Assembly: GCA_007376345.1 (NCBI GenBank)
Contig: VMGA01000010.1
Span: forward strand, 1 to 35,093
Reading direction: 5' to 3'
DNA: 35,093 bases
Origin: Microgenomates group bacterium Gr01-1014_16
Lineage (GTDB): Bacteria; Patescibacteriota; Microgenomatia; CAZETR01; Amesbacteraceae
The notes beneath the pieces are model-generated. The model saw nothing but the letters and a program-made list of their open reading frames with translations. It was not told the origin of the DNA and made no database searches. Positions 5,819 to 21,881 of this stretch are shown here, one piece after another. The translations under genes were made by a program, and so were the position numbers. The stretch's first letter is position 1; each line of letters starts with the position of its first letter.

Positions 5819-5924
5819 TGAGCTGATTTTTAAAAAAGTTCGCACTGATTTTCGGGATTCACCGTAATGCTGCAGCTCGCTGCGCTCGCTTTTGGCTCCG
5901 GCTCGGCTGCGGCCTCGCCTCCGC
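5819..5924. repeat. Left end of element 1; inverted repeat with 12638-12743
   Basis: By-eye alignment: 104/106 identical to reverse complement of 12638-12743. Confidence 0.9.
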
Positions 5925-6018
5925 CATTTTTTGCGCGCGCCGTGTGCGACTGCCGTCGCACCAAGACCGAGAATTTTAAGTACGAACTGAATTTTCAAGT
6001 AACACAAGTATTTTACAA

Positions 6019-6420
6019 CATTCCAGACAGCCCACCCACCCGAATACAAAGGGTGGCGGCGACCCCACTTCCGTTCGCAGGGCTCCCTAGGGGGACCCTT
6101 GCCCATGTTTCAGCTGTTCTAGCAACTCTTCGCAATCCCTTCCGAACTAAATGCAGTTCTACTAAGTCAGCTCACTCCAGCGGGGTATCCGCTTTTTCGC
6201 CCCCGCCTTCTTTATCCTTACCCCATCTCGGGTCCGGACGGCTTCGCGAGGACTCTCAACGGTTCGGGCCGGAGTTCTGATTCCTTAGAAAGACCCGGCC
6301 CTCACGTGGGTCGGGCCCGCTTCTTCGCAAGCCTTCAAAAATTCCAAGGGAGTTCCTGTCGCGGGCCCTCCTTTTTAGCTGGTGCTCTCCGATACTGGGG
6401 CGGGGGCGGCGGACGCCGCC
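6019..6420. ncRNA. Structured GC-rich non-coding module, copy A (orientation unresolved)
   Basis: Ordered conserved blocks shared with 15020-15397 (CATTCC..CCCACCC..GGCGGCGACCCCAC; CGCCCCCGCCTT; CTCGGGTCCG; GGGGCGGGGGCGGCGGACGCCGCC); hairpin GGGCCCGC/GCGGGCCC at a position where copy B has GTCCCGCC/GGCGGGAC. Confidence 0.55.
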
Positions 6421-6426
6421 ACAAAA

Positions 6427-7614
6427 TTATTCTTCTGCTTCCGTTAGCTCCAAAGGCTTGATCTCTTGAAGTTCTCTCCCTGTTACTGCTTGTAGTTCAC
6501 CATACATTCCATGAGTATTGTCAATAATCTTGCGTAATTCTTTTTCCTGTCTCGACCATTTTAGATTAAACCAACGTTTTTCTTTCTCAATATCTCCTTG
6601 CAAATTATTAAATGCTTCAACTATGGCCTCTATTCTATGTGTAAATTCTACACTTCTTAAATATTGATACAAAACTTCCATTTTTTCGTTTTTGCCCACA
6701 TTAGCCAGTTTTTCAAAGTGGATATGAATTAAATCAAAGCGAAGGGCAATTGCTAGCCCTCTGGCGGACTTTATAGTTGTTATCCAAACATTTTCCCTGT
6801 AAACAAAGGTCTCAATATCCTCCGGTGGGTTGGCGACTACTAAAACCGCAAGTTGTGCTCCAGCCGCCCTTTGATCTTCTCTCAATTTCTTGAGCCATTC
6901 ATCTTTCCACTGCGCATTTTTAGACTCCCACAAGATCATTCCACACTCACGACCAAGTTTATCAACAACTGTTTGGGAAATATCTGCACCTCGTTCTCCT
7001 TTTTTAACTTCAGATACTTTGTCTTCAGGAAACTCTCTCCTTAGTATTTGTTCAAGTTCTAATTCCATGACCTCACCTTGGATTTGTTGAGATCCCTGTT
7101 CTAACTTGCGTTTTAGATCATCATTCATCTTTAATGCCTCTTGAAGCTTCTTGTCTTTTTCAGCATCTTTAAGTTGATGATTTTCTTGAGCCTCTTTGAG
7201 TGCATTGTCTCGGATCTTAACTCTTTCCTCGTCGAGCTGTCGTTGTTTTTCGATCTCAAATTTTTGTTTGGCCTCCTCCAGTTCTCGCTTCTCTTTTCTT
7301 ATTTTTAACTCTTGCTCTTCGGCTCGTTCCGCTCGTTGCTTGAGTTCAAGTATTTGCTCTTCTTTATCTTTGAGTTCCTTGGTGACACTTTCCTGAGCTT
7401 CGAGTTTTGCTTTCTCAGAAACCTGTTTTTTAGCTTCCTCAAATTCCTTTTTCTTTAACTCTTCAAATTCTTGCCTTTCGCGCTTGATTTGTTCAATTTC
7501 CCCTCGGTGTTTCAACTGCTCTTCCTTCAGTAATTTTTCTTCGAGTTCATGTTTGTAAGCATCGGTAGGCTCAAAAAGTTTCCCGCATTGTGGACATTTA
7601 ATTTGTGTGGTCAT
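6427..7614 (-). CDS. DUF2130-family protein: N-terminal zinc-ribbon-like motif, coiled coil, PD-(D/E)XK-like C-terminus
   Basis: IKCPQCGKLFEPTDAYKHELEEKLL; GADISQTVVDKLGRECGMILWESKNAQWKDEWLKKLREDQRAAGAQLAVLVV. Confidence 0.85.
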   Translation of the reverse strand: MTTQIKCPQCGKLFEPTDAYKHELEEKLLKEEQLKHRGEIEQIKRERQEFEELKKKEFEEAKKQVSEKAKLEAQESVTKELKDKEEQILELKQRAERAEEQELKIRKEKRELEEAKQKFEIEKQRQLDEERVKIRDNALKEAQENHQLKDAEKDKKLQEALKMNDDLKRKLEQGSQQIQGEVMELELEQILRREFPEDKVSEVKKGERGADISQTVVDKLGRECGMILWESKNAQWKDEWLKKLREDQRAAGAQLAVLVVANPPEDIETFVYRENVWITTIKSARGLAIALRFDLIHIHFEKLANVGKNEKMEVLYQYLRSVEFTHRIEAIVEAFNNLQGDIEKEKRWFNLKWSRQEKELRKIIDNTHGMYGELQAVTGRELQEIKPLELTEAEE

Positions 7615-7618
7615 AAAT

Positions 7619-9226
7619 TCATGTTAAAGGAAACGCTTTGCTATTGCATGTTTGAATAGCGTCAAAAATTATTTTCATTTCATTTTCAAATTCCAATTGA
7701 GTCACTTTGCTTGCAACATCCTTTGCATAGGAAACCTTTCTATCATTAGGAATGTCATTCTTACTCTTCCGGTAAGCAGGCGGATAATATTCCTCAAGCG
7801 ATTCTGTTGTTAGTTCAAAAACTTGGTTTTTCTGAAAAAGATATGGGTATCCCTGTTTAAAAAGATCATATTTTATTTTTTGATTTTTATTGGGTTTATC
7901 AATAAGTACAACCGCTGTCTTCTTATAGATTGGATTATCAGAACCTGCCAACGGCGAAAACAATTTATGAACAGCAAGTAGAGTAGGCTCTTGTTCATCG
8001 ATATCCCCTCCTGCATAAATAATTTTTAAACCTCTGTGCGTCTCAGCATAGAACCGTTTAATTACACTGTTTATAAATTCAAATTCGCTCCTTCCCTCGA
8101 CTATCAAAAAATTTCGAGGTAATAATAAATCAGAAGGACTTCCTCCTAATAAATCGAATATCACATCTACTTTATCGACATCACCAACCTCGTTTATGTC
8201 TGTAATTCTGTTATTTTTTTCAACCTTAAATATTTTTTGATTCTCATTATTATCGACAACTAGTACAGAAGAATGTGTATTCACCAACACTTGATCTGTC
8301 TTACTAATATCAACAAGCGCCCGTTTCAATGCACGTTGGGCCGAGGGATGAAGATGTAACTCTGCCTCATCTATTAAAAACAGAAATGAACCGCCACCGA
8401 GCTGTTCCTTTCTGTAGTCCGCAAAGGCCTGGATAATTGAAAGCATAATCGCTCTTTGCATTCCATCACCTTTATCCTCAGCTTTTGTTTCAATCCCATC
8501 GTATACGGTTGTATCGAAGCTTTTAAGTAATTCATTAAAATGAGGAGGATTAACTCCAAATTTCACTCTTGTTCCATCAGGAAACTGTTTTTGAAGATAT
8601 ATTTCAACTTTAGCACCTAGTTTATTAAGTTCTTTTCTTACTTCGGAATCTTCGTTATCGAACAATTTAGCAAATTGTTTTTTGAAATCAATATAATCTT
8701 GGGAATTCTCAATAATTGCAGACAGCACGCCGGAAAGCATGACACCTATCGGGTTTTTGTCTTTGTATTTAGACACATCGTCTAGCCTTATTTTTGTATT
8801 AATATATTCGAGTTTTGGCAAAAACTCATTAATGGCCGTATCTAAACCCTGCGGGTTACCCTTATTTTCTCCATCAACGATATAAACTCTCTTATGATCA
8901 GAACTAGTCTTTTTGACAGAAAATGACCCCGAGTTACCCAGTAGATTTTTCAGTTTGGTTTTATTTGCATCAGTTTTTAACTTATTAATATCCGATTCTT
9001 CAATCCCATCAAAGAAAATTTCGACACTGACTTGATTACTCGGATCCCTATTATAATGCTCATCGTCACTTGATGAATTTGCATTAAAAAACCACTCTAT
9101 GGCTTCAAACAAGTTAGTCTTTCCATGATTATTTTGACCTACAAAAATATTAAAAGCCTTAATTTCAAGATTTTCAATTTTTCGGATGGAGCGGTAATTA
9201 TTAATGGAGACTTTTGTAATTTTCAT
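7619..9226 (-). CDS. OLD-family AAA ATPase with TOPRIM-like domain
   Basis: SINNYRSIRKIENLEIKAFNIFVGQNNHGKTNLFEAIEWFF (Walker A), FLFLIDEAELHLHPSAQR, LIVEGRSEFEFI (TOPRIM-like). Confidence 0.88.
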   Translation of the reverse strand: MKITKVSINNYRSIRKIENLEIKAFNIFVGQNNHGKTNLFEAIEWFFNANSSSDDEHYNRDPSNQVSVEIFFDGIEESDINKLKTDANKTKLKNLLGNSGSFSVKKTSSDHKRVYIVDGENKGNPQGLDTAINEFLPKLEYINTKIRLDDVSKYKDKNPIGVMLSGVLSAIIENSQDYIDFKKQFAKLFDNEDSEVRKELNKLGAKVEIYLQKQFPDGTRVKFGVNPPHFNELLKSFDTTVYDGIETKAEDKGDGMQRAIMLSIIQAFADYRKEQLGGGSFLFLIDEAELHLHPSAQRALKRALVDISKTDQVLVNTHSSVLVVDNNENQKIFKVEKNNRITDINEVGDVDKVDVIFDLLGGSPSDLLLPRNFLIVEGRSEFEFINSVIKRFYAETHRGLKIIYAGGDIDEQEPTLLAVHKLFSPLAGSDNPIYKKTAVVLIDKPNKNQKIKYDLFKQGYPYLFQKNQVFELTTESLEEYYPPAYRKSKNDIPNDRKVSYAKDVASKVTQLEFENEMKIIFDAIQTCNSKAFPLT

Positions 9227-9252
9227 ATATGTTCGACAAAATAACCTTGAAA

Positions 9253-9552
9253 TTATTTATCTCCGCACATCGGATTAAGTTGTAACCGTAAATAAGATTC
9301 AATATGCAGTCTTATTTGTTGATTAGCCTCTCGATAAATTGCGACGTAAATGGTCTGGCTATTGGCATTTCTTTGCCAGCAAGACCGTCTTTCGTGCCCA
9401 GAAATCCGTGTGCCTAATTGATCGGTTTCTCCAACATCCAACCATCGCTCGTTAGTGTAGATGGCGTAAACCCCGGCCACATCATTAAACGCTGTCGATA
9501 GCGGATAACCGGTTTCAAGTTGATACCCGGCAATATTTGTTGTCATAATCAC
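9253..9552 (-). CDS. Small GIY-YIG-like protein
   Basis: GVYAIYTNERWLDVGETDQLGTRISGHERRSCW; possible GTG start at 9552 or ATG at 9546. Confidence 0.6.
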   Translation of the reverse strand: MIMTTNIAGYQLETGYPLSTAFNDVAGVYAIYTNERWLDVGETDQLGTRISGHERRSCWQRNANSQTIYVAIYREANQQIRLHIESYLRLQLNPMCGDK

Positions 9553-9568
9553 TTACTCCTTCTCCCTC

Positions 9569-9608
9569 TTGACAAAGTTAGTAAAAAGGTAGTAAATGTA
9601 TACTAGTA
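9569..9608. promoter_or_regulatory. Divergent LexA-like/GIY-YIG control region with three TAGTA repeats
   Basis: TTGACA at 9569; TAGTA at 9579, 9590 and 9604; palindrome TACTAGTA at 9601-9608. Confidence 0.35.
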
Positions 9609-9617
9609 CTCCTATTT

Positions 9618-10220
9618 ATGAATGTCAACATGGAAAAGCCAATAACCCCAAAGCAAAAGATAGTTTTCGAATTTATCAAATCTTTCTCCAAAAAAAACGG
9701 GTTTGCTCCATCACTTCAGGAAATTGCCGATTATCTCAATAAATCTTTAAGTACGGCACAGCATTTCGTGGCGGAGTTACATAAGAAAGGCTATCTACAA
9801 AAGAGCGAAAACGTCGCTAGGAGTATTAGCACGCTGGGGGATACCTTCAAACAAATTTTTAAGCTCGGGTATATTGCCGCCGGTAATCCGATAGAGCCGA
9901 TCGAAAACCCAGAGCCGATCGACGTGCCCACATCGTTTCTGGAAAAGCCGGGTAACTATTACGCTCTTGAAGTTAAAGGCAACAGTATGATTGAAGACAA
10001 CATATTAGACGGTGACACCGTGGTAATTAGGCACACACAGATAGCAGAAGACGGCGATAGAATAGTTGCAATAACGGAAGACGGTGCGACCCTTAAAGTT
10101 TTTAGAAATAAAAACGGCAAAACGTACTTAGAGCCTAGAAACAATAATTTGAGTGCTATTTATCCAAAGCAATTGGAAATCCGAGGAAAATATTGTGGTT
10201 TAATACGAAAAGGAGAATAA
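9618..10220 (+). CDS. lexA: LexA-like repressor/S24 peptidase
   Basis: ITPKQKIVFEFIKSFSKKNGFAPSLQEIADYLN (wHTH), YIAAGNPI, YALEVKGNSMIEDNILDGDTVVI, EDGATLKVF. Confidence 0.9.
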   Translation: MNVNMEKPITPKQKIVFEFIKSFSKKNGFAPSLQEIADYLNKSLSTAQHFVAELHKKGYLQKSENVARSISTLGDTFKQIFKLGYIAAGNPIEPIENPEPIDVPTSFLEKPGNYYALEVKGNSMIEDNILDGDTVVIRHTQIAEDGDRIVAITEDGATLKVFRNKNGKTYLEPRNNNLSAIYPKQLEIRGKYCGLIRKGE

Positions 10221-10243
10221 AATGATTATACCTGCCGACTTTT

Positions 10244-10648
10244 ATGGGAGATATATTCACAAAGGAAAAAAGAAGCGAAATAATGTCTCGGATTACCGGG
10301 AAAAATACGACACCGGAACTTACAGTAAGAAAAATTCTCCGAAAAATGGGGTACAAGTACCGCTTAAACGCCCACAACTTGCCGGGAAAACCGGATGTGG
10401 TTATTCATTCGGAGAAACTTGTTATTTTTGTCAACGGCTGCTTTTGGCATAACCATAAGGGGTGTAAAAGAAGCTCGTTACCGAAAACTAATACTGAATT
10501 TTGGAAAGACAAGATTAATAAAAATGTTGAAAAACAAAAACAAAGCATTAAAGCACTTAAAAAATTAGGTTGGAAGATTTTAGTGCTTTGGCAGTGTAAA
10601 ATTAACAACAATAATGCATTATTGAAAACTTTGTCTCAAAACCTATGA
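10244..10648 (+). CDS. vsr: Very short patch repair endonuclease (Vsr)
   Basis: RSEIMSRITGKNTTPELTVRKILRKMGYKYRLN...LPGKPDVV...VFVNGCFWHNHKGCK. Confidence 0.95.
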   Translation: MGDIFTKEKRSEIMSRITGKNTTPELTVRKILRKMGYKYRLNAHNLPGKPDVVIHSEKLVIFVNGCFWHNHKGCKRSSLPKTNTEFWKDKINKNVEKQKQSIKALKKLGWKILVLWQCKINNNNALLKTLSQNL

Positions 10649-11775
10649 AAAAAAATAAAAAAACACACTCCAATAAACCCGTCTTGATAGATTTGTTTGC
10701 CGGGGCTGGTGGGTTATCTATCGGATTTGAACAAGCCGGATTCAAATTAGTCGCAGCCACAGATTGGGATCATTGGTCTTGCGAAACATTGAGAGCCAAT
10801 CATAGAAATGTTTTTGTGGCCGAAGGGGATATAAACGAAGTAGACCTGAATGACTTTGCCGGTAAACTTTCTGCCGATGAAGTCGACCTAATAGTAGGCG
10901 GACCGCCTTGTCAAGGGTTTAGCGCGTTGGGGAAGAGATTGAAAAGTGACCCTCGGAATCAGCTTTGGCAACAGTATATGAGATTCGTTGAGTATTTCAA
11001 CCCGAAAGTTTTCTTAATGGAAAACGTTCCCGAACTTCTAAAGAGTGAGGAATATGTTCAAATTAAAAGAGCCGCGGAAAAACTTGGGTACCAAGTAAGG
11101 GAAAAGATATTATTTGCGCCTGATTACGGTGTGCCCCAAAAAAGAAGAAGGGCCATAATTTTGGGGAGCAGAATAGGTGAACCTAAATTTCCGAAACCCA
11201 CCCACTTGTTACCCGGCCAATTAACCTTGGATAACTACAGGTGTGTCCCGTGGAAAAGTGTCAGAGATGTTATAGGGGATCTCCCGTTAGAGCCGGACGG
11301 AAACAACTGGCATGTTGGAAGAAACCCTACTGAAAAATCTCTTAAAAGGTATAAGTCTGTCCCTCCCGGAGGAAATCGTTTTAATCTGCCGCAAGATCTT
11401 ATGCCTGATTGTTGGAAAAGGAAAAAAACCGGCTCAACAGACGTTTTCGGCAGGTTAGAGTGGGACAAGCCGTCGCTAACGATCCGAACGGAATTTTTCA
11501 AACCAGAAAAAGGAAGATATCTTCACCCGGAAGCTCACAGGCCGATAACTATCAGGGAAGCAGCCAGACTGCAAACTATTCCAGATAGCTACGTATTGAA
11601 GGGATCACATCTGGAGGTGGCTAAACAAATAGGAAATGCCGTACCGTGCGAATTGGCTAGAAACATTGGAGAGGAATTGCTAAAACTCTTTAGCACCGAT
11701 TCGGATAGCATCAAGGAGAAGAGAATTTACCGATCGACCGGTTTTGAGAGACTTCTCGCTTACCAACAACCTTAA
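10645..11775 (+). CDS. dcm: DNA (cytosine-5-)-methyltransferase
   Basis: DLFAGAGGLSIGFEQAGF, GGPPCQGFSALGKR, MENVPELL, QIGNAVPCELA. Confidence 0.95.
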   Translation: MKKNKKTHSNKPVLIDLFAGAGGLSIGFEQAGFKLVAATDWDHWSCETLRANHRNVFVAEGDINEVDLNDFAGKLSADEVDLIVGGPPCQGFSALGKRLKSDPRNQLWQQYMRFVEYFNPKVFLMENVPELLKSEEYVQIKRAAEKLGYQVREKILFAPDYGVPQKRRRAIILGSRIGEPKFPKPTHLLPGQLTLDNYRCVPWKSVRDVIGDLPLEPDGNNWHVGRNPTEKSLKRYKSVPPGGNRFNLPQDLMPDCWKRKKTGSTDVFGRLEWDKPSLTIRTEFFKPEKGRYLHPEAHRPITIREAARLQTIPDSYVLKGSHLEVAKQIGNAVPCELARNIGEELLKLFSTDSDSIKEKRIYRSTGFERLLAYQQP

Positions 11776-12279
11776 ATCGTCTGGAAGGTTTACTGAAACA
11801 ATTTTGTTTTTAATCGTTTCCGGATAAGCGGCAAGAGATTTTTTTCCAGCATTACATCTGCTACACAAAGTCCACAAATTTTCTTCCACAGTTTTTCCTT
11901 GTTGCCTTAATGGAGTTATATGATCAACCTCCAGATTCACTACATGCCCGTCATCATATTTTTCTCCTCCCTTGTGGCCGCATAGTTGGCACACATAGCG
12001 GTCACGCTCCAAGACTTTCAGCCTTAACTTCAGGTTAATATATCCGTCTGTCTGAACACCTTTCTTATTAACAGACTTCAAGGTATATCCGCTAGGGCTA
12101 CTGCTATAACGTATATCCCAACCCTCCGCTCTTAATTCTCTTATCCTGCGTGCGTAATTATGTTGCCCCGACACTTCAATCAGCTTCTCGTTCGGAACAA
12201 GCTTCCTCATATTTTCATACAACACGTCGAGTAATTTTTGCCAAACTCCGTTTTTATCGCTTTTGGGAACTCTTTTCAT
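11680..12279 (-). CDS. HNH endonuclease, probable cognate restriction enzyme
   Basis: RYVCQLCGHKGGEK...NLEVDHITPLRQQGKTVEENLWTLCSRCNAGK; 96-bp tail-to-tail overlap with dcm. Confidence 0.88.
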   Translation of the reverse strand: MKRVPKSDKNGVWQKLLDVLYENMRKLVPNEKLIEVSGQHNYARRIRELRAEGWDIRYSSSPSGYTLKSVNKKGVQTDGYINLKLRLKVLERDRYVCQLCGHKGGEKYDDGHVVNLEVDHITPLRQQGKTVEENLWTLCSRCNAGKKSLAAYPETIKNKIVSVNLPDDLRLLVSEKSLKTGRSVNSLLLDAIRIGAKEF

Positions 12280-12280
12280 A

Positions 12281-12493
12281 TCATATTCCCTTAAAGAGTT
12301 CCGATAACTCCAGTCCTAAAACTTTTGCAATCTTCTCAATATTTTCCAGCGAAACGTTACGTGTCCCTCGTTCCAAATCGCTTACATAAGTCCTATGCAG
12401 ACCGGATCTGAAAGCCAACTCCTCCTGGGATAGCCCCTTAGCTTTTCTCAATTGTCTCAGCCTCTTACCATATTTTCTTTTTATGTCGATCAT
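12281..12493 (-). CDS. XRE-family HTH regulator, C-protein-like
   Basis: YGKRLRQLRKAKGLSQEELAFRSGLHRTYVSDLERGTRNVSLENIEKIAKVL. Confidence 0.88.
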   Translation of the reverse strand: MIDIKRKYGKRLRQLRKAKGLSQEELAFRSGLHRTYVSDLERGTRNVSLENIEKIAKVLGLELSELFKGI

Positions 12494-12551: not shown

Positions 12552-12588
12552 ATAAGTGACGTATTGTATCAAAATATATCATTTATTG

Positions 12589-12611
12589 AAAATTTTTGCG
12601 TTTTCTTTTTG
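12589..12611. repeat. Left arm of perfect 23-bp inverted repeat bracketing the recombinase 1 leader
   Basis: AAAATTTTTGCGTTTTCTTTTTG is the reverse complement of 12841-12863. Confidence 0.9.
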
Positions 12612-12637
12612 AGAGAACGAGTCCGAGCCGATGTTTC

Positions 12638-12838
12638 GCGGAGGCGAGGCGACAGCCGAGCCGGAGCCAAAAGCGAGCGCAGCGAGCTGCAGCATTACGG
12701 TGAATCCCGAAAATCAGTGCGAACTTTTTTAAAAATCAGCTCAGAAAGTGAGTGGTCGGTGGCCCGCAGGGCCACAGTCTGCGCGGTGGGGGTCACGCAG
12801 AGCCTAGCAAAGCCCTTTTTGTAGTTCACCCTGAGTTG
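12638..12838. repeat. Internal inverted copy of the predicted circle junction (attP) of element 1
   Basis: 12638-12743 is the reverse complement of the left end; 12743-12838 is the reverse complement of the right end. Confidence 0.75.
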
Positions 12839-12840
12839 TA

Positions 12841-12863
12841 CAAAAAGAAAACGCAAAAATTTT
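12841..12863. repeat. Right arm of 23-bp inverted repeat, just upstream of recombinase 1
   Basis: CAAAAAGAAAACGCAAAAATTTT. Confidence 0.9.
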
Positions 12864-12881
12864 AAGTAAAACTAACTGCCT

Positions 12882-14558
12882 ATGAAATACATTGCTTATT
12901 GTAGAAAAAGTACTGACGAAAAGGATCGCCAAATCCTTAGTATTGAGTCCCAAATCCAGGAGATTCGGGACTTTACTCAAAGACAGCATTTAGAGATTAT
13001 AGAATTTGCAGTCGAAGCCAAAACCGCTAAAATTCCCGGTCGGGAAGTCTTTGAGCAAGTGTTAAGGAGAATTGAGAAAGGAGAGGCTCAAGGCGTAGTT
13101 TCCTGGCACCCGGATCGATTGGCCAGAAATAGTATTGACGGCGGCAAGATAATCTATCTTCTGGATACCGGTAAACTAATTGACCTTAAATTCCCATCGT
13201 TTTGGTTTGAAAATTCACCTCAAGGCAAGTTTGTATTAAATATCGCTTTCGGCCAATCTAAATACTATGTGGACAACTTATCCGAGAATGTCAAACGTGG
13301 TTTAAAACAACTTCTGCGCAATGGAATCTGGCCAGCCAAACCGCCCTACGGCTATATTTATAATAAATCTGCTAAGAAGCACGAGATTGACCCGATAAAA
13401 TCCAAACTCATCAAAAAGGCTTTCCACAAGTATGCCATTGCAGAATGGAATCAAACGCAAATATCCAAAGTATTGTTTGAACAAGGTTACAAACGGAAAA
13501 ACGGTAAATCACTTAGCTTAAATGAAGTTGTCCGTTTTCTAACCAACAAATTCTATATCGGTCTGTTTAAATACAATAGTGAATGGTACGAGGGAACTCA
13601 CGACCAATTTGTCCCCAAGGATCTTTTTGATGAAGTCCAAAGAAAACTCAACCAAAACAAACGCAACTTTGCCAACCGTAAATTCAACTTTTTAGGGCTA
13701 ATTAAATGTGGTGAATGTGGAGCGAGTATTACCGCTGAACACAAATTCAAGTTTTACAAACGCACTCGTGGCAAAGTTGAGTATATTTACTACCGGTGTA
13801 CTAAAAAGTTGAGACATTGTGGCCAAAAGTACATTCAGGAACCGAATCTCGAGCAACAACTTCGCAAAACCATTTCTGATGTGGCTTTACCCCCAACTTG
13901 GGCGGATCAGTGGATGAAATGGTTGGAAAGAGATGAGTTAATCGAAGAACAAACTGCCAGTGGCAAAGTAATAAGGTTACAGAGTTTAGTGAAAACACAC
14001 GATGAAAAGTTGAACACACTTTTAGACGGATATCTGGATGGAACGATTGAGTCCGAAACCTACAAGAGCAAGAAGAATCAATTGTTTGAGGAAAAGGTCA
14101 AGCTTCACGAAGAAATAATCAAACTTGAGAGTCAGGGTTCCACTTGGCTCGGACCAATGCGAGAATTTATACAAACCGCGAAGAATGGGGACAAAATGGC
14201 GCGCGCAAAAAATAATGGCGAAGAATTAGCAATCTTCGCCAGAAACATCGGCTCGGACTACTTTTTAACTGACCGGCAACTCAGGGTGAACTACAAAAAG
14301 GGCTTTGCTAGGCTCTGCGTGACCCCCACCGCGCAGACTGTGGCCCTGCGGGCCACCGACCACTCACTTTCTTCGTTGGCGGCCGCCAGTTTCTGCCATT
14401 CCCATCCGGATCCGCAGTACGTGCTGGCCAGCCCCCACAGCGTCTCGCCTCTGGTTATCTCGTGGGTGACCACCTTCAGCTCCGCTTTCGGCAAATTCAA
14501 TTTCATGCCGATCTCCAACAAACCAGGATTAGACAGAGCATCTTTATTTTCGGCATAA
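12882..14558 (+). CDS. Large serine recombinase 1; native part probably ends near the element right end, ORF then reads antisense into the LysM gene
   Basis: MKYIAYCRKSTDEKDRQILSIESQIQEI (resolvase Ser), HPDRLARNSIDGG, zinc-ribbon CGECGASITAEHK...YYRCTKK; ~similar to recombinase 2 up to NYKKGF. Confidence 0.92.
   Translation: MKYIAYCRKSTDEKDRQILSIESQIQEIRDFTQRQHLEIIEFAVEAKTAKIPGREVFEQVLRRIEKGEAQGVVSWHPDRLARNSIDGGKIIYLLDTGKLIDLKFPSFWFENSPQGKFVLNIAFGQSKYYVDNLSENVKRGLKQLLRNGIWPAKPPYGYIYNKSAKKHEIDPIKSKLIKKAFHKYAIAEWNQTQISKVLFEQGYKRKNGKSLSLNEVVRFLTNKFYIGLFKYNSEWYEGTHDQFVPKDLFDEVQRKLNQNKRNFANRKFNFLGLIKCGECGASITAEHKFKFYKRTRGKVEYIYYRCTKKLRHCGQKYIQEPNLEQQLRKTISDVALPPTWADQWMKWLERDELIEEQTASGKVIRLQSLVKTHDEKLNTLLDGYLDGTIESETYKSKKNQLFEEKVKLHEEIIKLESQGSTWLGPMREFIQTAKNGDKMARAKNNGEELAIFARNIGSDYFLTDRQLRVNYKKGFARLCVTPTAQTVALRATDHSLSSLAAASFCHSHPDPQYVLASPHSVSPLVISWVTTFSSAFGKFNFMPISNKPGLDRASLFSA
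14277..14372. repeat. Right end of element 1; 96-bp inverted repeat with 12743-12838
   Basis: Identical to reverse complement by eye. Confidence 0.92.
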
Positions 14559-14818
14559 ATATCCACCCAGTTGTATCCTGATCCGTAAGCTTTCTCGGCA
14601 ATTTTCCACAAATTGTCACCGGCTTTAACAGTATATGCGGCCGGTAATTGATCCCCTGTAGGCACCTCACCATCAGATTCGACTTCGGTCTGATCAGAAG
14701 ATGTCTGTTCCCGGTCAACTTTATTGACAGATTTGAAATAGTTAAACAGCAAAGCACCTACCAAAACAACCACTCCGATCCCCAACATCCGGCTAAAAGT
14801 CGTTTCGTTGATTTTCAA
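14291..14818 (-). CDS. LysM protein with C-terminus replaced by element 1 right-end sequence
   Basis: TM then YTVKAGDNLWKIAEKAYGSGYNW...LEIGMKLNLP and HEITRGETLWGLASTYCGSGWEWQKLAAANE; residues after NE are element-encoded. Confidence 0.85.
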   Translation of the reverse strand: MKINETTFSRMLGIGVVVLVGALLFNYFKSVNKVDREQTSSDQTEVESDGEVPTGDQLPAAYTVKAGDNLWKIAEKAYGSGYNWVDIYAENKDALSNPGLLEIGMKLNLPKAELKVVTHEITRGETLWGLASTYCGSGWEWQKLAAANEESEWSVARRATVCAVGVTQSLAKPFL

Positions 14819-14891: not shown

Positions 14892-14948
14892 GCGGGGTCT
14901 GTACGAAAAAGTTCGAACCTGCTTTACCTCGTAATGTCGCAGCTCCCT
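14892..14948. repeat. Left end of element 2; inverted repeat with 20117-20173
   Basis: 57/57 identical to the reverse complement by eye. Confidence 0.92.
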
Positions 14949-15019
14949 TTTTTACGCGCGCGCTTGTCCCGCTTCGGCGGGACAGAACCCACGAACCAAT
15001 TAACGAAAACCATTATACT

Positions 15020-15397
15020 GCATTCCGACTCAACCCACCCGCCCCCGGATATGGAAGGCGGCGACCCCACGCCTCCCGCCGCAGTCGCCCTCGGTCAGCG
15101 TCTGCGGGCGGTGGCGGATCCCCGTTCGACTTGCTCACGGCTGCCACTTCTTTACAACCTTTCACAGCTTTCACAGGTCAAAGTACATTTCCACCTCATA
15201 GGTAAAAGCGATGGTCGGCGTGGGGTGATTCCGCTTTCGCCCCCGCCTTTTATATCGTACCCCATCCTCGGGTCCGCACGGCTCCGCGAGGACACTCCAC
15301 GGCTCACTGCGGCTCGCTGGGGTCGTCCCGCCTAATTCGGCGGGACTCCTTTTAGCAGCTAATCCCCGAATCTGGGGCGGGGGCGGCGGACGCCGCC
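15020..15397. ncRNA. Structured GC-rich non-coding module, copy B (orientation unresolved)
   Basis: Homologous block order to 6019-6420; hairpin GTCCCGCC/GGCGGGAC (15325-15332/15339-15346); ends GGGGCGGGGGCGGCGGACGCCGCC. Confidence 0.55.
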
Positions 15398-15466
15398 AAT
15401 TTATAAATCGGATTCAAACTAATACCTTCTGTGAGCCCCTGTGGTGCCGTTTACCGGCCATTTTCC

Positions 15467-15494
15467 TTGACAACACTACAGATAGTGGTACACT
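15467..15494 (+). promoter_or_regulatory. Promoter with operator-like dyad in the spacer
   Basis: TTGACA (15467-15472), 16-bp spacer, TACACT (15489-15494); dyad CACTA-CAGA-TAGTG in the spacer. Confidence 0.6.
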
Positions 15495-15549
15495 TTATTT
15501 AACAACAAAGTATCTCAAAAGATACATAGACAAATTAGGGATTGATCCG

Positions 15550-15578
15550 CCCCGGTTTGCAGAAAGACTGGGGTTTTT
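15550..15578 (+). terminator. Terminator/attenuator-like hairpin in the leader of the small ORF at 15595
   Basis: CCCCGGTTTGCAGAAAGACTGGGG followed by TTTTT, about 20 nt before the start codon. Confidence 0.5.
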
Positions 15579-15594
15579 ATTAACTATTTGAATT

Positions 15595-15837
15595 ATGTCA
15601 ACTTTAGGCAATAGACTTATCAAATTATTTACGAATCTAAAATGGACAACTCCCAGAGTGGGTTTGGCAAATCATGGGAGAAAGTGGTGTCCGCCACCAG
15701 GTGTAACTACAAGCTATCCGGGGCAACAACCATTTATCTTGATGCCACGAAAAGTCAACGAGAATGTTATTAAATACATCATCCAAGAGCTAAAGAGGTT
15801 CGGGTATGCCAAGAAAGATCTAGAGGACGAACTCTAA
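15595..15837 (+). CDS. Small protein, possibly HicA-like toxin
   Basis: PFILMPRKVNENVIKYIIQELKRFGYAKKDLEDEL resembles a HicA C-terminus; tail-to-tail with a HicB-like gene. Confidence 0.4.
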   Translation: MSTLGNRLIKLFTNLKWTTPRVGLANHGRKWCPPPGVTTSYPGQQPFILMPRKVNENVIKYIIQELKRFGYAKKDLEDEL

Positions 15838-16199
15838 GCGGTTACAAGTCTTGCTCGAAAAACTGGCTCAGGTGGATATACCACTGTTCCATCGTCTAAT
15901 TTCAAAGTAAGCGTATCAGGAAGCTTCCTCGCGCGGTATCTGGGAACGTCAAAATAGGTAAGAATAGAGTCAAAAATAGCCTCTCTAAGTTCTGATTCGT
16001 TTTCTCCACTTGCTATTAGACCAGGGTAATCTACCGATTCTACCCAAATTAAACCCCGATCTCGGTGAGTCTTAAATTGAAGATCCAGTTTAAATGGGGG
16101 TAAGGAAGGGGGTCGATTTCGCAAGATATCAAACAAAACGAAATCCTTCAAATCTAACAATAAATCTATCAATTTATATTTTACTATACTCATATTCAT
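15834..16199 (-). CDS. HicB-like antitoxin-fold protein
   Basis: RDRGLIWVESVDYPGLIASGENESELREAIFDSILTYFD. Confidence 0.6.
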   Translation of the reverse strand: MNMSIVKYKLIDLLLDLKDFVLFDILRNRPPSLPPFKLDLQFKTHRDRGLIWVESVDYPGLIASGENESELREAIFDSILTYFDVPRYRARKLPDTLTLKLDDGTVVYPPEPVFRARLVTA

Positions 16200-16420
16200 A
16201 TTAATTCACATTATAATACTACGTCACTAGTATCGGGCCAGGAAGTTTGGTTGTCAATCGTCTTCTGTGTGCAGTCAGACAACTGATCGAAAAAGAGCCA
16301 TTGTACTGGGATTATATACCTGATGAGTATTTTAGTCCAGATTACCAAAAAAATAAACCCTAACACCTGGAATCTCAAAGAATAACGGTGAAAGAGTATC
16401 GCGAAGTGTAAAATTAAGCC

Positions 16421-17293
16421 ATGGCAGCAACTTTGTGGCATTCGCAAAACTTCATTGGTAATCCCAGTCTCGTCTCCAAACTACTTGGAATGACGGATAT
16501 AAACTCGTCTGATTTCGTGATTGAAATTGGTCCCGGAAAGGGCGCAATAACTGGACAGTTGGTCAGATCGGCTGGTTCAGTGTTGGCAATTGAAGCTGAC
16601 TTGAATCTCGCGAACAAACTTAACATCCAGAATGTCAAGGTAATTCAAGGAGATTTCTTAAAACATGCTCTCCCAGATCAAGTATACAAAGTCGTCGCAA
16701 ATATCCCCTTCAACTTAACCGCCGAAATAATTAGGAAGTTGTTTTTGAGCGATGAGAACAAGCCTGAGGCTGCTTTTCTAATCATGCAGAATGAAGCAGC
16801 CCAAAAGTTTGCCGGAGTACCCAAAGCTACCCTTTCTTCTATTTTGATTCAAGTTGAGTACGACACCAGGATACTGACTAAAATCGACAAAGGAGAATTT
16901 GTTCCCACTTCCAAAGTCGACGCCGCCTTTATTTCGTTTATAAAAAGGGGTCAACCATTGGTTAACCGGACATATTCTCGAGAATTCGCAGACTTTGTTG
17001 CCTACGGCTATAAATATTTTCGATGGAATGAGCCGTTGATAAGCGTCTTTGATAGATTATTTACCAATTCCCAGAAAGAAAATCTGGAGAAAAAATTTCA
17101 ATTAACCGGCCAAAAAGTTTCCGACTTAGAAGTGTTTAAATGGATCGGACTATTTAATGATCTGGTGGATCAAGTGGCAACAGAAAAGTGGGATATATTC
17201 CGTGGAACAATGGAAAAATTAACTGAAGAACAATCACGGCTACAAAAACGACACAAAACTCAAACAAATCTTGGGAAAACTAATAAATCGTAG
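16421..17293 (+). CDS. rRNA adenine N6-methyltransferase, Erm/KsgA family
   Basis: LWHSQNFIGNPSLVSKLL, VIEIGPGKGAITGQLV, VVANIPFNLTAEIIRKLFL. Confidence 0.88.
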   Translation: MAATLWHSQNFIGNPSLVSKLLGMTDINSSDFVIEIGPGKGAITGQLVRSAGSVLAIEADLNLANKLNIQNVKVIQGDFLKHALPDQVYKVVANIPFNLTAEIIRKLFLSDENKPEAAFLIMQNEAAQKFAGVPKATLSSILIQVEYDTRILTKIDKGEFVPTSKVDAAFISFIKRGQPLVNRTYSREFADFVAYGYKYFRWNEPLISVFDRLFTNSQKENLEKKFQLTGQKVSDLEVFKWIGLFNDLVDQVATEKWDIFRGTMEKLTEEQSRLQKRHKTQTNLGKTNKS

Positions 17294-17316
17294 TAAACTT
17301 TTTATATCTACACTGG

Positions 17317-18003
17317 ATGAAAACCCGCCTACCAAAATCAAAAGGGGATTGGAAAACTGCAGTCGCTGTTGGTGCTACAGCGTTAATAGCCTCAGGTGGA
17401 TTATGGTGGATTGGTGATAGGAATAAAATTCCTGTTCCGGCCTACAAAATGCTCCGGGTCATAGACGGCGACACCTTTGAAACTACCGAACGTCAATTAA
17501 TCCGACTCTCCGGCGTCAACGCTCCGGAATTGGCAAATTGTTATGGCCAAGAGGCTAAAAGCACATTACAAAAATTAATTACTAACAAAAATCTTTATCT
17601 CAAAGTTATTTACCGCGACGGCAGCAATCGCCTGATCAGCCACGTTTATACCGATAAAGGGTTAGTTGCAACTCAGCTCGCTCGGGAAGGCACTGTATAC
17701 GACTTCGGTAGGGGTCTAGATGACCCTGAATTTGACCAAGCTGTAGATTATGCAAAGTCACACAAAATCGGAATTTTCAGCCCCAAATGCACACAGACAA
17801 TCAATACTGCCAATCCCAAGTGTGCCATCAAAGGCAATGTTCGCACTCCAGACTCCAAGCTATATCGTTTTCCGGGATGTGGAAATTACACAACCACGTT
17901 AGTTCAATTGTCATTAGACGATCGCTGGTTTTGTACCGAAAAAGAAGCTCAATCAGCCGGTTTTTCCAAAGGTTCAGACTGTTTTAACCAGAGTTGGAAA
18001 TAA
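17317..18003 (+). CDS. Thermonuclease (SNase-family), N-terminally anchored
   Basis: MLRVIDGDTFETTERQLIRLSGVNAPELANCYGQEAKSTLQKLI. Confidence 0.92.
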   Translation: MKTRLPKSKGDWKTAVAVGATALIASGGLWWIGDRNKIPVPAYKMLRVIDGDTFETTERQLIRLSGVNAPELANCYGQEAKSTLQKLITNKNLYLKVIYRDGSNRLISHVYTDKGLVATQLAREGTVYDFGRGLDDPEFDQAVDYAKSHKIGIFSPKCTQTINTANPKCAIKGNVRTPDSKLYRFPGCGNYTTTLVQLSLDDRWFCTEKEAQSAGFSKGSDCFNQSWK

Positions 18004-18249
18004 GTAGAATTATCTGACAGGAAAATTAATGTGATAATGCGCAAAAACCAAATAGGTGTCGTATCTGATTTCTTCTTCAATTACTTGATCCATAACCACC
18101 AGAAAGTCCAGTGCCTAAAATTTTCTTAATTTCTAATTTCATTCTAAGGTCTATTTTACTCTTTAACCACCATATAAATCGAGGAACCATCCAATTTATG
18201 CTCTGTCTCATTTCTATCGCAACTCACGCTTAGCAAGGAATACAAAGTA

Positions 18250-19011
18250 TCAAATCTCACAGGAAGGAACCAATTGTAAGTTTTCTTCCTCTACCAGGCT
18301 TAGGAAATAGTCCGAAAGTAAAAAGTTAACGTCGTCTAGTCGCTCTTGGATAAATGAAGTTAAACCCTTTTCAAAATCAGTTGAATACCCCGGATGAAAA
18401 AATATCTCAATTGATTTTATTTGTCCTAATTGTTTGAGAAAAGCTAAATCCTGTTTATAAGCGGTGTATATGTCCTTGGGAAAACCATATCTAAAACCAA
18501 GAATTGCGTCGGCGGTTCTGCCAATGTTTAAGCCTTTTGGAGTCTCATCGGCTTTAAGAGTGAAATGGCCAAGAGTGTTAGAGCGCTCACCCCTGCGAGC
18601 ATAACAGATATTCCTGACACAATAATCGGCAATATACCTGACAATTTTTGAATTTAATGAGATTTGTTTGTGCCCAATGATGTGTTTAGGGGTAAAACCG
18701 ATTAGTTGTTCAAATAGACGAACCTCTTCCTCAAAAGCAGCGATTAATTGCTCGGGAGTCCAGTTCAGTAAGATATCATCGTAATCTTTTCCTCTCAAAA
18801 CCTTGCCATCCTTGGAAATTCGACAAAGTGAGAAATGTAGTCCCACGTTTTGCACGCTGTTGTTTTTGATGTAATTAACAGCGTTCATGGAACCATAACA
18901 ATCAACCATGAGGGAAAGTTCAGTTATCCGACCTTTTTCATAAGCCTCAATTATGGCTCTGTTAGTGTTTTCAGTAAATCCGAAGTCGTCTGCCGTTGTT
19001 AGTGTCTTCAT
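18250..19011 (-). CDS. YdjC/ChbG-HpnK family carbohydrate deacetylase
   Basis: LTTADDFGFTENTNRAIIEAYEKGRITELSLMV; VGLHFSLC; IFFHPGY. Confidence 0.88.
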   Translation of the reverse strand: MKTLTTADDFGFTENTNRAIIEAYEKGRITELSLMVDCYGSMNAVNYIKNNSVQNVGLHFSLCRISKDGKVLRGKDYDDILLNWTPEQLIAAFEEEVRLFEQLIGFTPKHIIGHKQISLNSKIVRYIADYCVRNICYARRGERSNTLGHFTLKADETPKGLNIGRTADAILGFRYGFPKDIYTAYKQDLAFLKQLGQIKSIEIFFHPGYSTDFEKGLTSFIQERLDDVNFLLSDYFLSLVEEENLQLVPSCEI

Positions 19012-19928
19012 GTGTTGTTTTTGGCCTCCACCTTATTCATGAGAATTACTGAAGCTACAATCAACAAACCACCTAAAATTTCTTTTAATGCCGGAGTCTC
19101 TGAAAAAACAATTAGTCCAATCAAAACCGCAAAGGCCGACTCTAGAGTCAAAATATTACTTGCGTGTACAGCTTCTACTTTTTGGAATCCATACTGGGAA
19201 AGAAAATTGTTTAGGACATTGAAGAAGCCTGATGCCAAGACAGCAATAATAATACCCAAACTCCAGCCACTTGACGGTAATGACTCTCCTGCCAAAATTG
19301 AAGCTAAAAATAATATTATTGAACCGATTAATAAAATTAGCGACGTAATTTCTTTGTTTGTCAGTAAGTTGGAGTGCCATTTTCGAGTAACATAAGCAAA
19401 AGAAAAGAAAACCGCGGATATGAGAGCGTAAAAGTCTCCTTTTACCCACGACAATAAGTTTGAATAGTCCTGAGCCGAAATCAGCATTACCCCACCAAAA
19501 GCCAGAATAATTAACAGAACCTTTTTAATTGTCAGTTTTTCCTTGAATAGTAAAAAGCCGAAAAATGCCGTTAGAGGAAGAGAACCGATAAATGAAACAT
19601 TGCTGTATTTGGTAAGTAGTAATGCCCTAGTGAACAGGTTGACACCAAGTATGTAAAACGAGATAGACCTAAGAGTTAACAAAGACCATTCTTTTAGAGT
19701 TATTCTTCTAAGTTTTGACAAATCTAGTGACTTGTTAAAAAAAATTAAACTCATCAGAAATGCAGCAAACATTCGAAGATAAATTTGTTGAAATATAGCA
19801 AAAGACGTGTTGAGGTATCTCACAAAAATACCCATAATTGCATAAATGAAAGCCAGCCACACCAGAACAATTACCCCTTTGTTATGGTCAGACAAAACTT
19901 TTAAGCGATTAATGATCTTGTTACTCAT
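19008..19928 (-). CDS. EamA/DMT family transporter
   Basis: About ten hydrophobic segments, two-fold repeat, LLFKEKLTIKKVLLIILAFGGVMLI; ATGA overlap with the deacetylase. Confidence 0.85.
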   Translation of the reverse strand: MSNKIINRLKVLSDHNKGVIVLVWLAFIYAIMGIFVRYLNTSFAIFQQIYLRMFAAFLMSLIFFNKSLDLSKLRRITLKEWSLLTLRSISFYILGVNLFTRALLLTKYSNVSFIGSLPLTAFFGFLLFKEKLTIKKVLLIILAFGGVMLISAQDYSNLLSWVKGDFYALISAVFFSFAYVTRKWHSNLLTNKEITSLILLIGSIILFLASILAGESLPSSGWSLGIIIAVLASGFFNVLNNFLSQYGFQKVEAVHASNILTLESAFAVLIGLIVFSETPALKEILGGLLIVASVILMNKVEAKNNT

Positions 19929-20008
19929 TGGATCATTTTATGCTTTCGATTATCAAATTGGAATAACTATTGACTTCGGGTTAGATTAGGTAATAATTAA
20001 ATAAGTAC

Positions 20009-20035
20009 CTTAAAAATTTTTGCGTTTTCTTTTTG
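20009..20035. repeat. Left arm of ~23-26 bp inverted repeat bracketing the recombinase 2 leader
   Basis: Near reverse complement of 20286-20311 (one substitution, one extra A). Confidence 0.85.
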
Positions 20036-20116
20036 CCCTAATGGGGTTCGGCCGATGTTTAGCGGAGGCGCGGGCGCAGCCGCGCCGGCCTGGCCTGCCG
20101 AAGCTGAAAGCGAAGG

Positions 20117-20271
20117 AGGGAGCTGCGACATTACGAGGTAAAGCAGGTTCGAACTTTTTCGTACAGACCCCGCATTTCGAGATATGCAACAGCCGGGTTC
20201 AGCCCGCCCGACTGGCGGGCGTAGGAAAATACGGCATCAAAGCCTTTTTTATAATCCAGCGAATTTTGCCG
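20117..20271. repeat. Internal inverted copy of the predicted circle junction (attP) of element 2
   Basis: 20117-20173 is the reverse complement of the left end; 20169-20271 matches the right end (98/103); overlap is CCCGC, complement of core GCGGG. Confidence 0.8.
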
Positions 20272-20320
20272 GATTGGAGAAAGTACAAAAAGAAAACGTA
20301 AAAATTTTAAGAGACTGACC

Positions 20321-21847
20321 ATGAAATACATCGCCTATTGCCGCAAATCCACCGACGAGAACAGCCGCCAGGTGTTATCCATCGAATCCCAAATCGCCGA
20401 ATTAACAGAGTTTGCTCAAAGAGAAAGTTTAGAGGTGGTGGAGTTTGTCACTGAAGCCAAAACGGCCAAGGAACCCGGTCGGGAGAAATTCAAAGCGATG
20501 TTGGCAACTATCGCGTCCGGCAAGGCTAACGCAATTTTAGCTTGGCACCCCGACAGGCTAGCCAGAAATTCCATAGACGGTGGAAATATTGTTTACTTGC
20601 TGGATATAGGTAAACTGCTCGACCTGAAATTTCCCTCTTTTTGGTTTGACAATACTTCCCAAGGCAAATTTATATTGGCAATCGCCTTCGGCCAATCCAA
20701 ATACTACGTCGATAACTTAAGCGAGAATGTCAAAAGGGGATTGCGCCAAAAATTGCGTCTGGGCATCTGGCCCAGCCATGCTCCATTAGGCTACAAAAAT
20801 GATCTAGTCACACACGAGATCCTTGTCGACGATCAAAAATCAAAATTAGTGAACAAGGTATTTACCCTGTTTCTCAATGAAAAGTCATTCGTGAAAATAT
20901 CCAAGTTTTTGTTAGAACATGGAGTTACAGGGAAAAACGGCAAACCTCTGCACCTCACCCGGATTCGGCGCATGCTCACCAATCCCTTCTACATTGGCAA
21001 GTTCTTCTACAAATGCGAGTGGCATCAAGCCAGCCACAAACTATTCCTCTCAAAGCAACTATTCGACCAAGTCCAAGAGGGGGTAAAGGCAATATCTAGA
21101 CAAACATATCACTCGCACCGGTTTGCTTTTTTGGGTTTAGCCAAATGCCGCGAATGTGGTGCCACCATCACGGCTGAACGGCATATCAAACACTACAAGC
21201 ACGGCGGCTCCCAGAAGTTTGTTTACTACCGCTGTACCAAAAAATCCGGTCCATGCACCCAGCCATATCTCCCCGAACTCGAATTTGAACACCAGGTGCG
21301 CCGCATTATCTCCGACGTCGCCTTACCGGAGAATTGGGGTCAACAATGGCTGAACTGGCTGGACCAAGACGAACAGCTGGAAAAATTAAAATCCGCCGAC
21401 CAAATCAATAAACTCACACTCCAAATCAATGACATTGACGCCAAACTCGAATCTTTGCTGGACGGTTTCCTCGACCAAGTCGTCGACAGTCCGAGTTACA
21501 AAACCAAGAAAAACCAGCTATTTGAACAGAAAGGCAAACTGGAGAGGGAAATTGGTCAACTCCAAAGAGATGGTTCGAGTTGGCTCGAACCAATGCGAGA
21601 GATAATAAAGACGGCGGTGGATGGGGACAAAAGCGCGCGCGTAAAAAATAATTCCGATGAACTGTTATCCATCGGAAAAAACATCGGCTCGAACTACTTT
21701 CTCCACCAACGGCAAATTTCGCTGGATTATAAAAAGGGCTTTGATGCTGTATTTTCTTACGCCCGCCAGTCGGGCGGGCTGAACCCGGCTGCTGCATATC
21801 TCGAAATGCGGGCCCGACCGGATTCGAACCGGCGGTCTCTTCCTTGA
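20321..21847 (+). CDS. Large serine recombinase 2; ORF tail reads antisense into tRNA-Asp
   Basis: MKYIAYCRKSTDENSRQVLSIESQIAEL, HPDRLARNSIDGG, CRECGATITAERHIK; tail RPDSNRRSLP is the tRNA antisense reading. Confidence 0.93.
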   Translation: MKYIAYCRKSTDENSRQVLSIESQIAELTEFAQRESLEVVEFVTEAKTAKEPGREKFKAMLATIASGKANAILAWHPDRLARNSIDGGNIVYLLDIGKLLDLKFPSFWFDNTSQGKFILAIAFGQSKYYVDNLSENVKRGLRQKLRLGIWPSHAPLGYKNDLVTHEILVDDQKSKLVNKVFTLFLNEKSFVKISKFLLEHGVTGKNGKPLHLTRIRRMLTNPFYIGKFFYKCEWHQASHKLFLSKQLFDQVQEGVKAISRQTYHSHRFAFLGLAKCRECGATITAERHIKHYKHGGSQKFVYYRCTKKSGPCTQPYLPELEFEHQVRRIISDVALPENWGQQWLNWLDQDEQLEKLKSADQINKLTLQINDIDAKLESLLDGFLDQVVDSPSYKTKKNQLFEQKGKLEREIGQLQRDGSSWLEPMREIIKTAVDGDKSARVKNNSDELLSIGKNIGSNYFLHQRQISLDYKKGFDAVFSYARQSGGLNPAAAYLEMRARPDSNRRSLP

Positions 21848-21881
21848 CAGGGAAGCGCGCTAACCGCTACGCTACGAGCCC
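21809..21881 (-). tRNA. tRNA-Asp (anticodon GTC)
   Basis: GGGCTCG/CGGGCCC acceptor, anticodon loop CTGTCAA, T arm CCGGTTCGAATCCGG, G73. Confidence 0.92.

Follow-up and report, generated by a model that had tools for sequence, protein, structure and literature searches.

Why should an integrated element carry, just upstream of its recombinase gene, an inverted copy of the junction that its own circular form would contain? The question was raised by a stretch of 35,093 nucleotides (contig VMGA01000010.1, positions 1 to 35,093, of Microgenomates group bacterium Gr01-1014_16), here called the window. The source genome comprises 1.03 Mb in 69 contigs, where seven recombinase matches were found.

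Two elements and their internal junction copies

The window contains two elements of the same design (Table 1), the second of which spans 14892-21812. Their recombinases, R1 and R2, scored above the Pfam cut-offs for all of the Resolvase, Recombinase, and zinc-ribbon domains and are hence large serine recombinases. The best named NCBIfam matches were the SCCmec Ccr and cyanobacterial XisF serine recombinases, a comparison by sequence score only in which the equivalog cut-offs were not reached (XisF, 96.9 against 375 for R1; CcrB, 119.7 against 900 for R2). When position 5819 was joined to 14373, the frame of the host LysM-domain gene was restored and ended in AAANETKNSIMKVF followed by a stop codon. 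The core common to element and host was 1 base only for element 1 and 5 bp (GCGGG) for element 2. In the circular form of element 1, the left arm l supplies the final 15 residues of the recombinase (ELIFKKVRTDFRDSP, then a stop codon).

Four inverted pairs of at least 40 bp were found in the window, two in each element. In element 1, the blocks l' and r', which have base 12743 in common, make up P', an internal copy of the attachment site attP, and R1 sits between P' and the right end. The preliminary description had read these blocks as reverse complements of the left and the right end. A recount returned the same 104 of 106 and 96 of 96 positions, and the block, when reverse-complemented, indeed runs from right end to left end in the order of a circle junction. 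Judged by their lengths and identities, such repeats cannot be of chance origin.

Table 1. Coordinates of the features of elements 1 and 2 in the window.
Feature	Position	Strand	Remark
Left end, arm l, element 1	5819..5924	+	inverted-repeat comparison
M1', element 1, just inside l	5926..5941	+	16/16 reverse complement of R1 codons 14198-14213
Cargo, element 1	6427..12493	.	DUF2130, OLD-like ATPase, LexA, Vsr, C5 methylase, HNH, HTH
S5, 5' arm of P'-bracketing stem, element 1	12582..12611	+	28/30 with S3
M2', element 1, abuts l' directly	12620..12637	-	18/18 reverse complement of R1 codons 14242-14259
l', inverted left-end copy, element 1	12638..12743	-	104/106 against 5819-5924
r', inverted right-end copy, element 1	12743..12838	-	96/96 against 14277-14372
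S3, 3' arm of bracket stem, element 1	12841..12870	+	ends 11 bases before R1 start codon
Recombinase R1	12882..14558	+	Resolvase, Recombinase, and zinc-ribbon domains; integrated frame terminates in host DNA
M1 within R1	14198..14213	+	codons around ARAKNN
M2 within R1	14242..14259	+	codons around NIGSD
Right end, arm r, element 1	14277..14372	+	3' part of R1 as far as crossover
Host LysM-domain gene	14291..14818	-	integration site of element 1 at its 3' end
Left end, arm l, element 2	14892..14948	+	
M1', element 2	14948..14965	+	18/18 reverse complement of 21631-21648
Cargo, element 2	15595..19928	.	Erm/KsgA-like methylase, SNase-like nuclease, YdjC, EamA, small ORFs
S5, element 2	20013..20035	+	22/23 with S3
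M2', element 2	20051..20060	-	10/10 with 21679-21688
l', element 2	20117..20173	-	57/57 against reverse complement of 14892-14948
r', element 2	20169..20271	-	98/103 against reverse complement of 21710-21812
S3, element 2	20286..20308	+	
Recombinase R2	20321..21847	+	53% identical to R1; circle tail GLYEKVRTCFTS, then stop
Right end, arm r, element 2	21710..21812	+	
tRNA-Asp	21808..21881	-	integration site of element 2 at its 3' end

A family of elements with attP inside the recombinase gene

Relatives were drawn from the recombinase family and from a genome collection that covered Microgenomates lineages, Saccharibacteria, Parcubacteria-type genomes, and a few other bins, and the locus of each was compared with itself to find inverted copies. 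Nearly all loci showed an inverted copy of the recombinase 3' end upstream of the recombinase. In a tree of 102 recombinases built with a quick method, P' was present in 77 of the 91 members of the main clade, across many CPR lineages, so that homologous elements do carry it. The remaining members of this clade included seven cut by contig ends, two with the left-end part only, and five without P', and among the distant homologues outside the clade P' was missing in nearly all. Because dozens of assemblies show the arrangement, the complete chromosome CP011210.1 among them, an assembly artefact is ruled out, and neither of the refuting outcomes named in the preliminary description applies. Elements 1 and 2 are therefore members of a family of small integrative elements of CPR bacteria, about 2.3-9.7 kb in size, which by their gene content and ends appear to be mobilised by a large serine recombinase. 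No close relative was found among the plasmids, phages, and viral contigs searched for free or viral forms. The literature search, with preprints and most subscription journals outside its coverage, returned no description of the arrangement.

Several loci departed from the common layout. The locus L034:5120-6770 (duplicated as L009) runs from the left end straight into S3 and the recombinase and then a tRNA, with neither P' nor cargo, and is perhaps a reduced, minimal element; apart from this left-end layout, no flipped (direct) copies of P' were found next to the recombinase. In L101:3926-11497, two elements are arranged in tandem, with the right end of a distant recombinase abutting the left end of the next element. 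At the start of the contig of L075 (1-1162), P' lies within a perfect inverted repeat of 448 bp, explained either by a fold-back in the assembly or by a palindromic intermediate that really exists. L104, considered as a circle, was instead found to have a longer arm ending at a tRNA-Val.

As in tRNA-integrating genomic islands, the right end was located at the 3' end of a tRNA gene in 58 of the 77 elements with enough flank, and the tRNA was antisense to the recombinase in every such element; element 1, in its LysM gene, is an exception. The core shared by element and host was mostly 4-5 bp in the other elements, as read from the sequences of the predicted attP x attB exchange. After integration, the recombinase frame passes the right end and continues in host DNA, while the frame read through the junction held in P' ended in a conserved tail, [IVLCA]R[TS]x[FM], in 54 of 68 elements, a pattern matched by only one integrated frame. 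This tail (..xIRTxF) is encoded by the left end and joined across the circle junction, and the P' junctions of the two window elements give tails ending in SLSELIFKKVRTDFRDSP and EMRGLYEKVRTCFTS. The comparison of these frames indicates that attP lies within the 3' end of the recombinase gene, and that integration swaps the native tail for host-encoded residues.

Permutation, orientation, and identity of the P' copy

Besides l' and r', two shorter complementary segments were identified. M2', placed between S5 and l', is reverse-complementary to codons around VGSN in the recombinase gene of the same element, and M1', just inside the left end, matches in the same manner the codons around ARAKNN. 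Both fitted their own gene better than those of other elements, with mean scores of 15.2 against 11.0 for M2' (54 elements) and 15.4 against 11.6 for M1' (41 elements). The neighbour of M2 is r in the gene (median gap 2 nt) but l in P' (median gap 0 nt; 35 elements), and P' is thus circularly permuted. The order in the circle is M1-x-[M2.r.l]-M1', and that of P' in the same sense is S3c-[r.l.M2]-spacer-S5c; in the locus L097, the permuted segment reached about 100 nt.

An inverted repeat, S5/S3, mostly of about 12-30 bp, brackets P' in 55 elements. Its two arms covary, with 51 distinct stems and as many as 27 changes in both arms at a single position, and the pairing of S5 with S3 was 0.835 within an element, compared to 0.703 with the S3 of other elements and 0.33-0.54 when the arms were slid. 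A hairpin-like segment (AATGCCCTCATTGG..ACCAGTGAGGGCATTT) precedes S5 in many elements, for example L092, L081, and L066, but not in all, and Rfam returned no convincing match for it.

In 42 elements the distal left end could be located, in each case upstream of P', which means that the recombinase faces outward. Against these 42 stands one probable case of the opposite orientation, L090, whose recombinase has the full tail FEKIRTEFAKN and reads into l, M2, and the S5 complement. A tRNA-Trp lies on its 5' side, whereas the relative L096 has the same tRNA on the 3' side. L090 is probably an inverted state, but its r and r' differ and it may be a chimera. Its contig was binned as Desulfobacterales and is probably misbinned, the recombinase being nested among CPR ones on the tree.

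P' might serve as an inversion switch, where integration would truncate the recombinase (off), and a rare recombination between r and r' would flip the gene into P' so that the tail is regained (on) and excision can follow. L090 is probably in that state, and r and r' would provide about 100 bp of homology. Nevertheless, we consider such a switch unlikely. The single case, itself possibly chimeric, is outnumbered 42 to one, and characterised serine integrases recombine only attP with attB unless a further factor is present, which excludes the pairing of attR or attL with attP (PMC3783163). The presence of l' and M2', the circular permutation, and the stems would also be left unexplained by inversion. 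It was suggested in the preliminary description that attR could recombine with the internal site to invert the recombinase gene, and attL to invert the cargo. Neither found support as a main function: the stem around P' in 55 elements and the upstream left end in 42 indicate that the recombinase is almost never inverted, and the outward orientation together with the pairing rule (PMC3783163) makes regular inversion unlikely, while a rare reactivating inversion is possible.

The ends of an element (P) and its P' were about 98% identical, and this identity was flat from the crossover to about 100 bp on each side. Between different elements, the ungapped identity over the attP region was only about 25-40%. 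The two copies have therefore evolved in concert, being homogenised within each element. Their mismatches comprised 63 G-T and 77 A-C pairs with no excess of G-T, and similarly 4 G-T and 3 A-C among the 1,003 pairs of the bracket stem. A lack of base-pair preference is as expected of neutral decay after copying, and the lack of a G-T excess over A-C suggests DNA rather than RNA pairing. The identities of the r and l copies were weakly correlated across elements (Spearman 0.36-0.38, p of about 0.03), as would be expected if both arms were reset together. In a few elements (L076, L092, and L083), l matches while r has been replaced, so that r and r' differ; these are probably chimeras.

In most elements, P' is located directly upstream of the recombinase start codon, where it could act as an operator: the recombinase would bind its own attP copy and repress itself, and the copy would have to follow the specificity of attP, since binding specificity and operator would need to co-evolve. 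However, the attP half-site bound by an integrase is 25 bp (PMC3783163), and binding alone would not hold 200 bp identical. A fixed sigma-70 promoter before S5 was sought and rejected, being placed no better than in shuffles (best score 8.87 observed, 8.39 shuffled), and permutation and stem complementarity would be left unexplained. Repression by this route thus seems rather unlikely.

The same position raises the idea of an RNA device, where P' would form a structured 5' leader that pairs with the 3' end of the mRNA; as only transcription from the circle would give a complete 3' end, expression would respond to whether the element is integrated. The leader is complementary to the 3' end of the recombinase mRNA, S3 ends near the start codon, and the leader folded better than shuffles (z -3.3). 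These features are set against the missing promoter, a G-U excess found nowhere, and Rfam searches that returned two tRNAs only for the window (E up to 0.5) and, for the other loci, tRNAs only plus matches below the gathering score. Without a G-U excess or an Rfam family, RNA pairing was rejected as the reason for the copies, and the device as a whole is improbable. Still less credible is a passive origin, where P' would be regenerated without function by copying around a hairpin or a small circle at each mobilisation. The circular permutation does resemble a trace of circle copying, but the clade-wide retention of P' over many CPR lineages and the covarying stems point to selection.

A possible pairing of P' with the element ends, known systems, and cargo

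We tentatively prefer, while placing it somewhat below an even chance, a reading of P' as a splint: by base pairing, it would allow a double-stranded attP, and with it the recombinase gene, to be rebuilt from a single strand of the element. The pairs formed within that strand would be l and l', r and r', M2 and M2', M1 and M1', and S5 and S3. From the layout, the five pairings could coexist in a double-stranded ring of about 235-330 bp with a complete attP, from which two stems would emerge, one on each strand at different points, and in which both element ends would abut exactly at the crossover. An element in a linear or single-stranded stage, for example during DNA uptake or replication, might in this manner rejoin its ends without error. 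The rejoined ends would restore the recombinase gene for a new integration, and P' and the ends would be homogenised at mobilisation and decay later. A broader proposal, namely a class of serine-recombinase elements in which, on a single DNA strand, the two ends pair with a circularly permuted splint inside the element and so rebuild attP, and whose recombinase gene is restored after each integration, is doubtful at present.

Among the models considered, the splint alone would explain at once why P' is inverted, why it has the full arms, why the permutation is exact, and why there are stems. It is supported by the conservation of P' in 77 of 91 recombinases, the flat identity of about 98%, the exactness of the permutation, the own-gene fit of M2' and M1', the covariation of S5 and S3, the lack of a G-T excess, the correlation between r and l identities, and the conserved tail reached through P' in 54 of 68 elements. 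There is also a precedent for the single-strand folding of inverted att copies in the phage CTXphi, where attP1 and attP2 on one strand pair into a double-stranded site (PMC3089051).

Several points weaken the splint. A linear or single-stranded intermediate was unseen, and among the cargo genes examined, none was recognised as coding for a replication or transfer protein. Because serine recombinases cleave both strands, a folded attP would be unusable in the way that XerCD uses that of CTXphi, and the winding of two closed loops requires a free end. Ordinary gene conversion could also produce the concerted evolution, the correlation between r and l is weak, and L076, L092, and L083 exist despite their differing r and r'. 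A standard fold prediction, with pseudoknots excluded, yielded the nested P:P' hairpin alone and not the ring of five pairings.

The elements resemble known large serine recombinase elements in their Resolvase, Recombinase, and zinc-ribbon domains and in the short core shared with the host. They differ in that the recombinase gene contains attP and has its missing tail encoded at the other end of the element, in the conserved inverted and permuted attP copy, and, for the two elements of the window, in that no separate directionality factor was identified. An attachment site inside the recombinase gene is also found in the suicidal SSV-type tyrosine integrases of archaea, where integration disrupts the gene, and self-disrupting recombinases were described in a review as exclusively archaeal (PMC8371274). 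Unlike these, R1 and R2 have serine recombinase domains rather than a tyrosine recombinase fold split into N and C parts; the CPR elements exchange only the last residues, leaving the catalytic part whole, and they keep a spare of the lost 3' end. CTXphi shares the inverted att copies able to pair on one strand but relies on the host tyrosine recombinases XerC and XerD, has its copies about 90 bp apart, and is a phage with a known single-stranded genome, whereas the CPR elements carry a serine recombinase gene between the copies and are known here from sequence alone.

If the proposed reading holds, the self-disrupting integrases, so far described from archaea only, would have a bacterial counterpart in this family of serine-recombinase elements. 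A built-in spare of the lost gene end bears on how self-disrupting elements move again, and the exact permuted complementarity leads to clear, testable predictions. With each element also comes a recombinase together with the att site that matches it.

Little is known of how CPR bacteria transfer genes, and in these bacteria the cargo of the elements comprises restriction, defence-like, and other genes. The predicted cargo of element 1 is of the restriction-modification or defence type. At 10244-12279, the Vsr endonuclease, C5 methylase, and HNH protein likely form a restriction-modification unit, which is adjoined by the OLD-like ATPase and the LexA-type repressor. In element 2, the rRNA adenine dimethylase at 16421-17293 was closer to Erm than to KsgA, scoring 190.3 against an Erm cut-off of 212. 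Additionally, GC-rich noncoding stretches were observed near the left ends of elements 1 and 2 (6045-6421 and 15030-15398, respectively), for which Rfam gave no match. The two stretches have two repeats in common (82% over 71 nt and 86% over 49 nt) and folded better than shuffles (z of -2.8 and -3.5), possibly as structured RNA.
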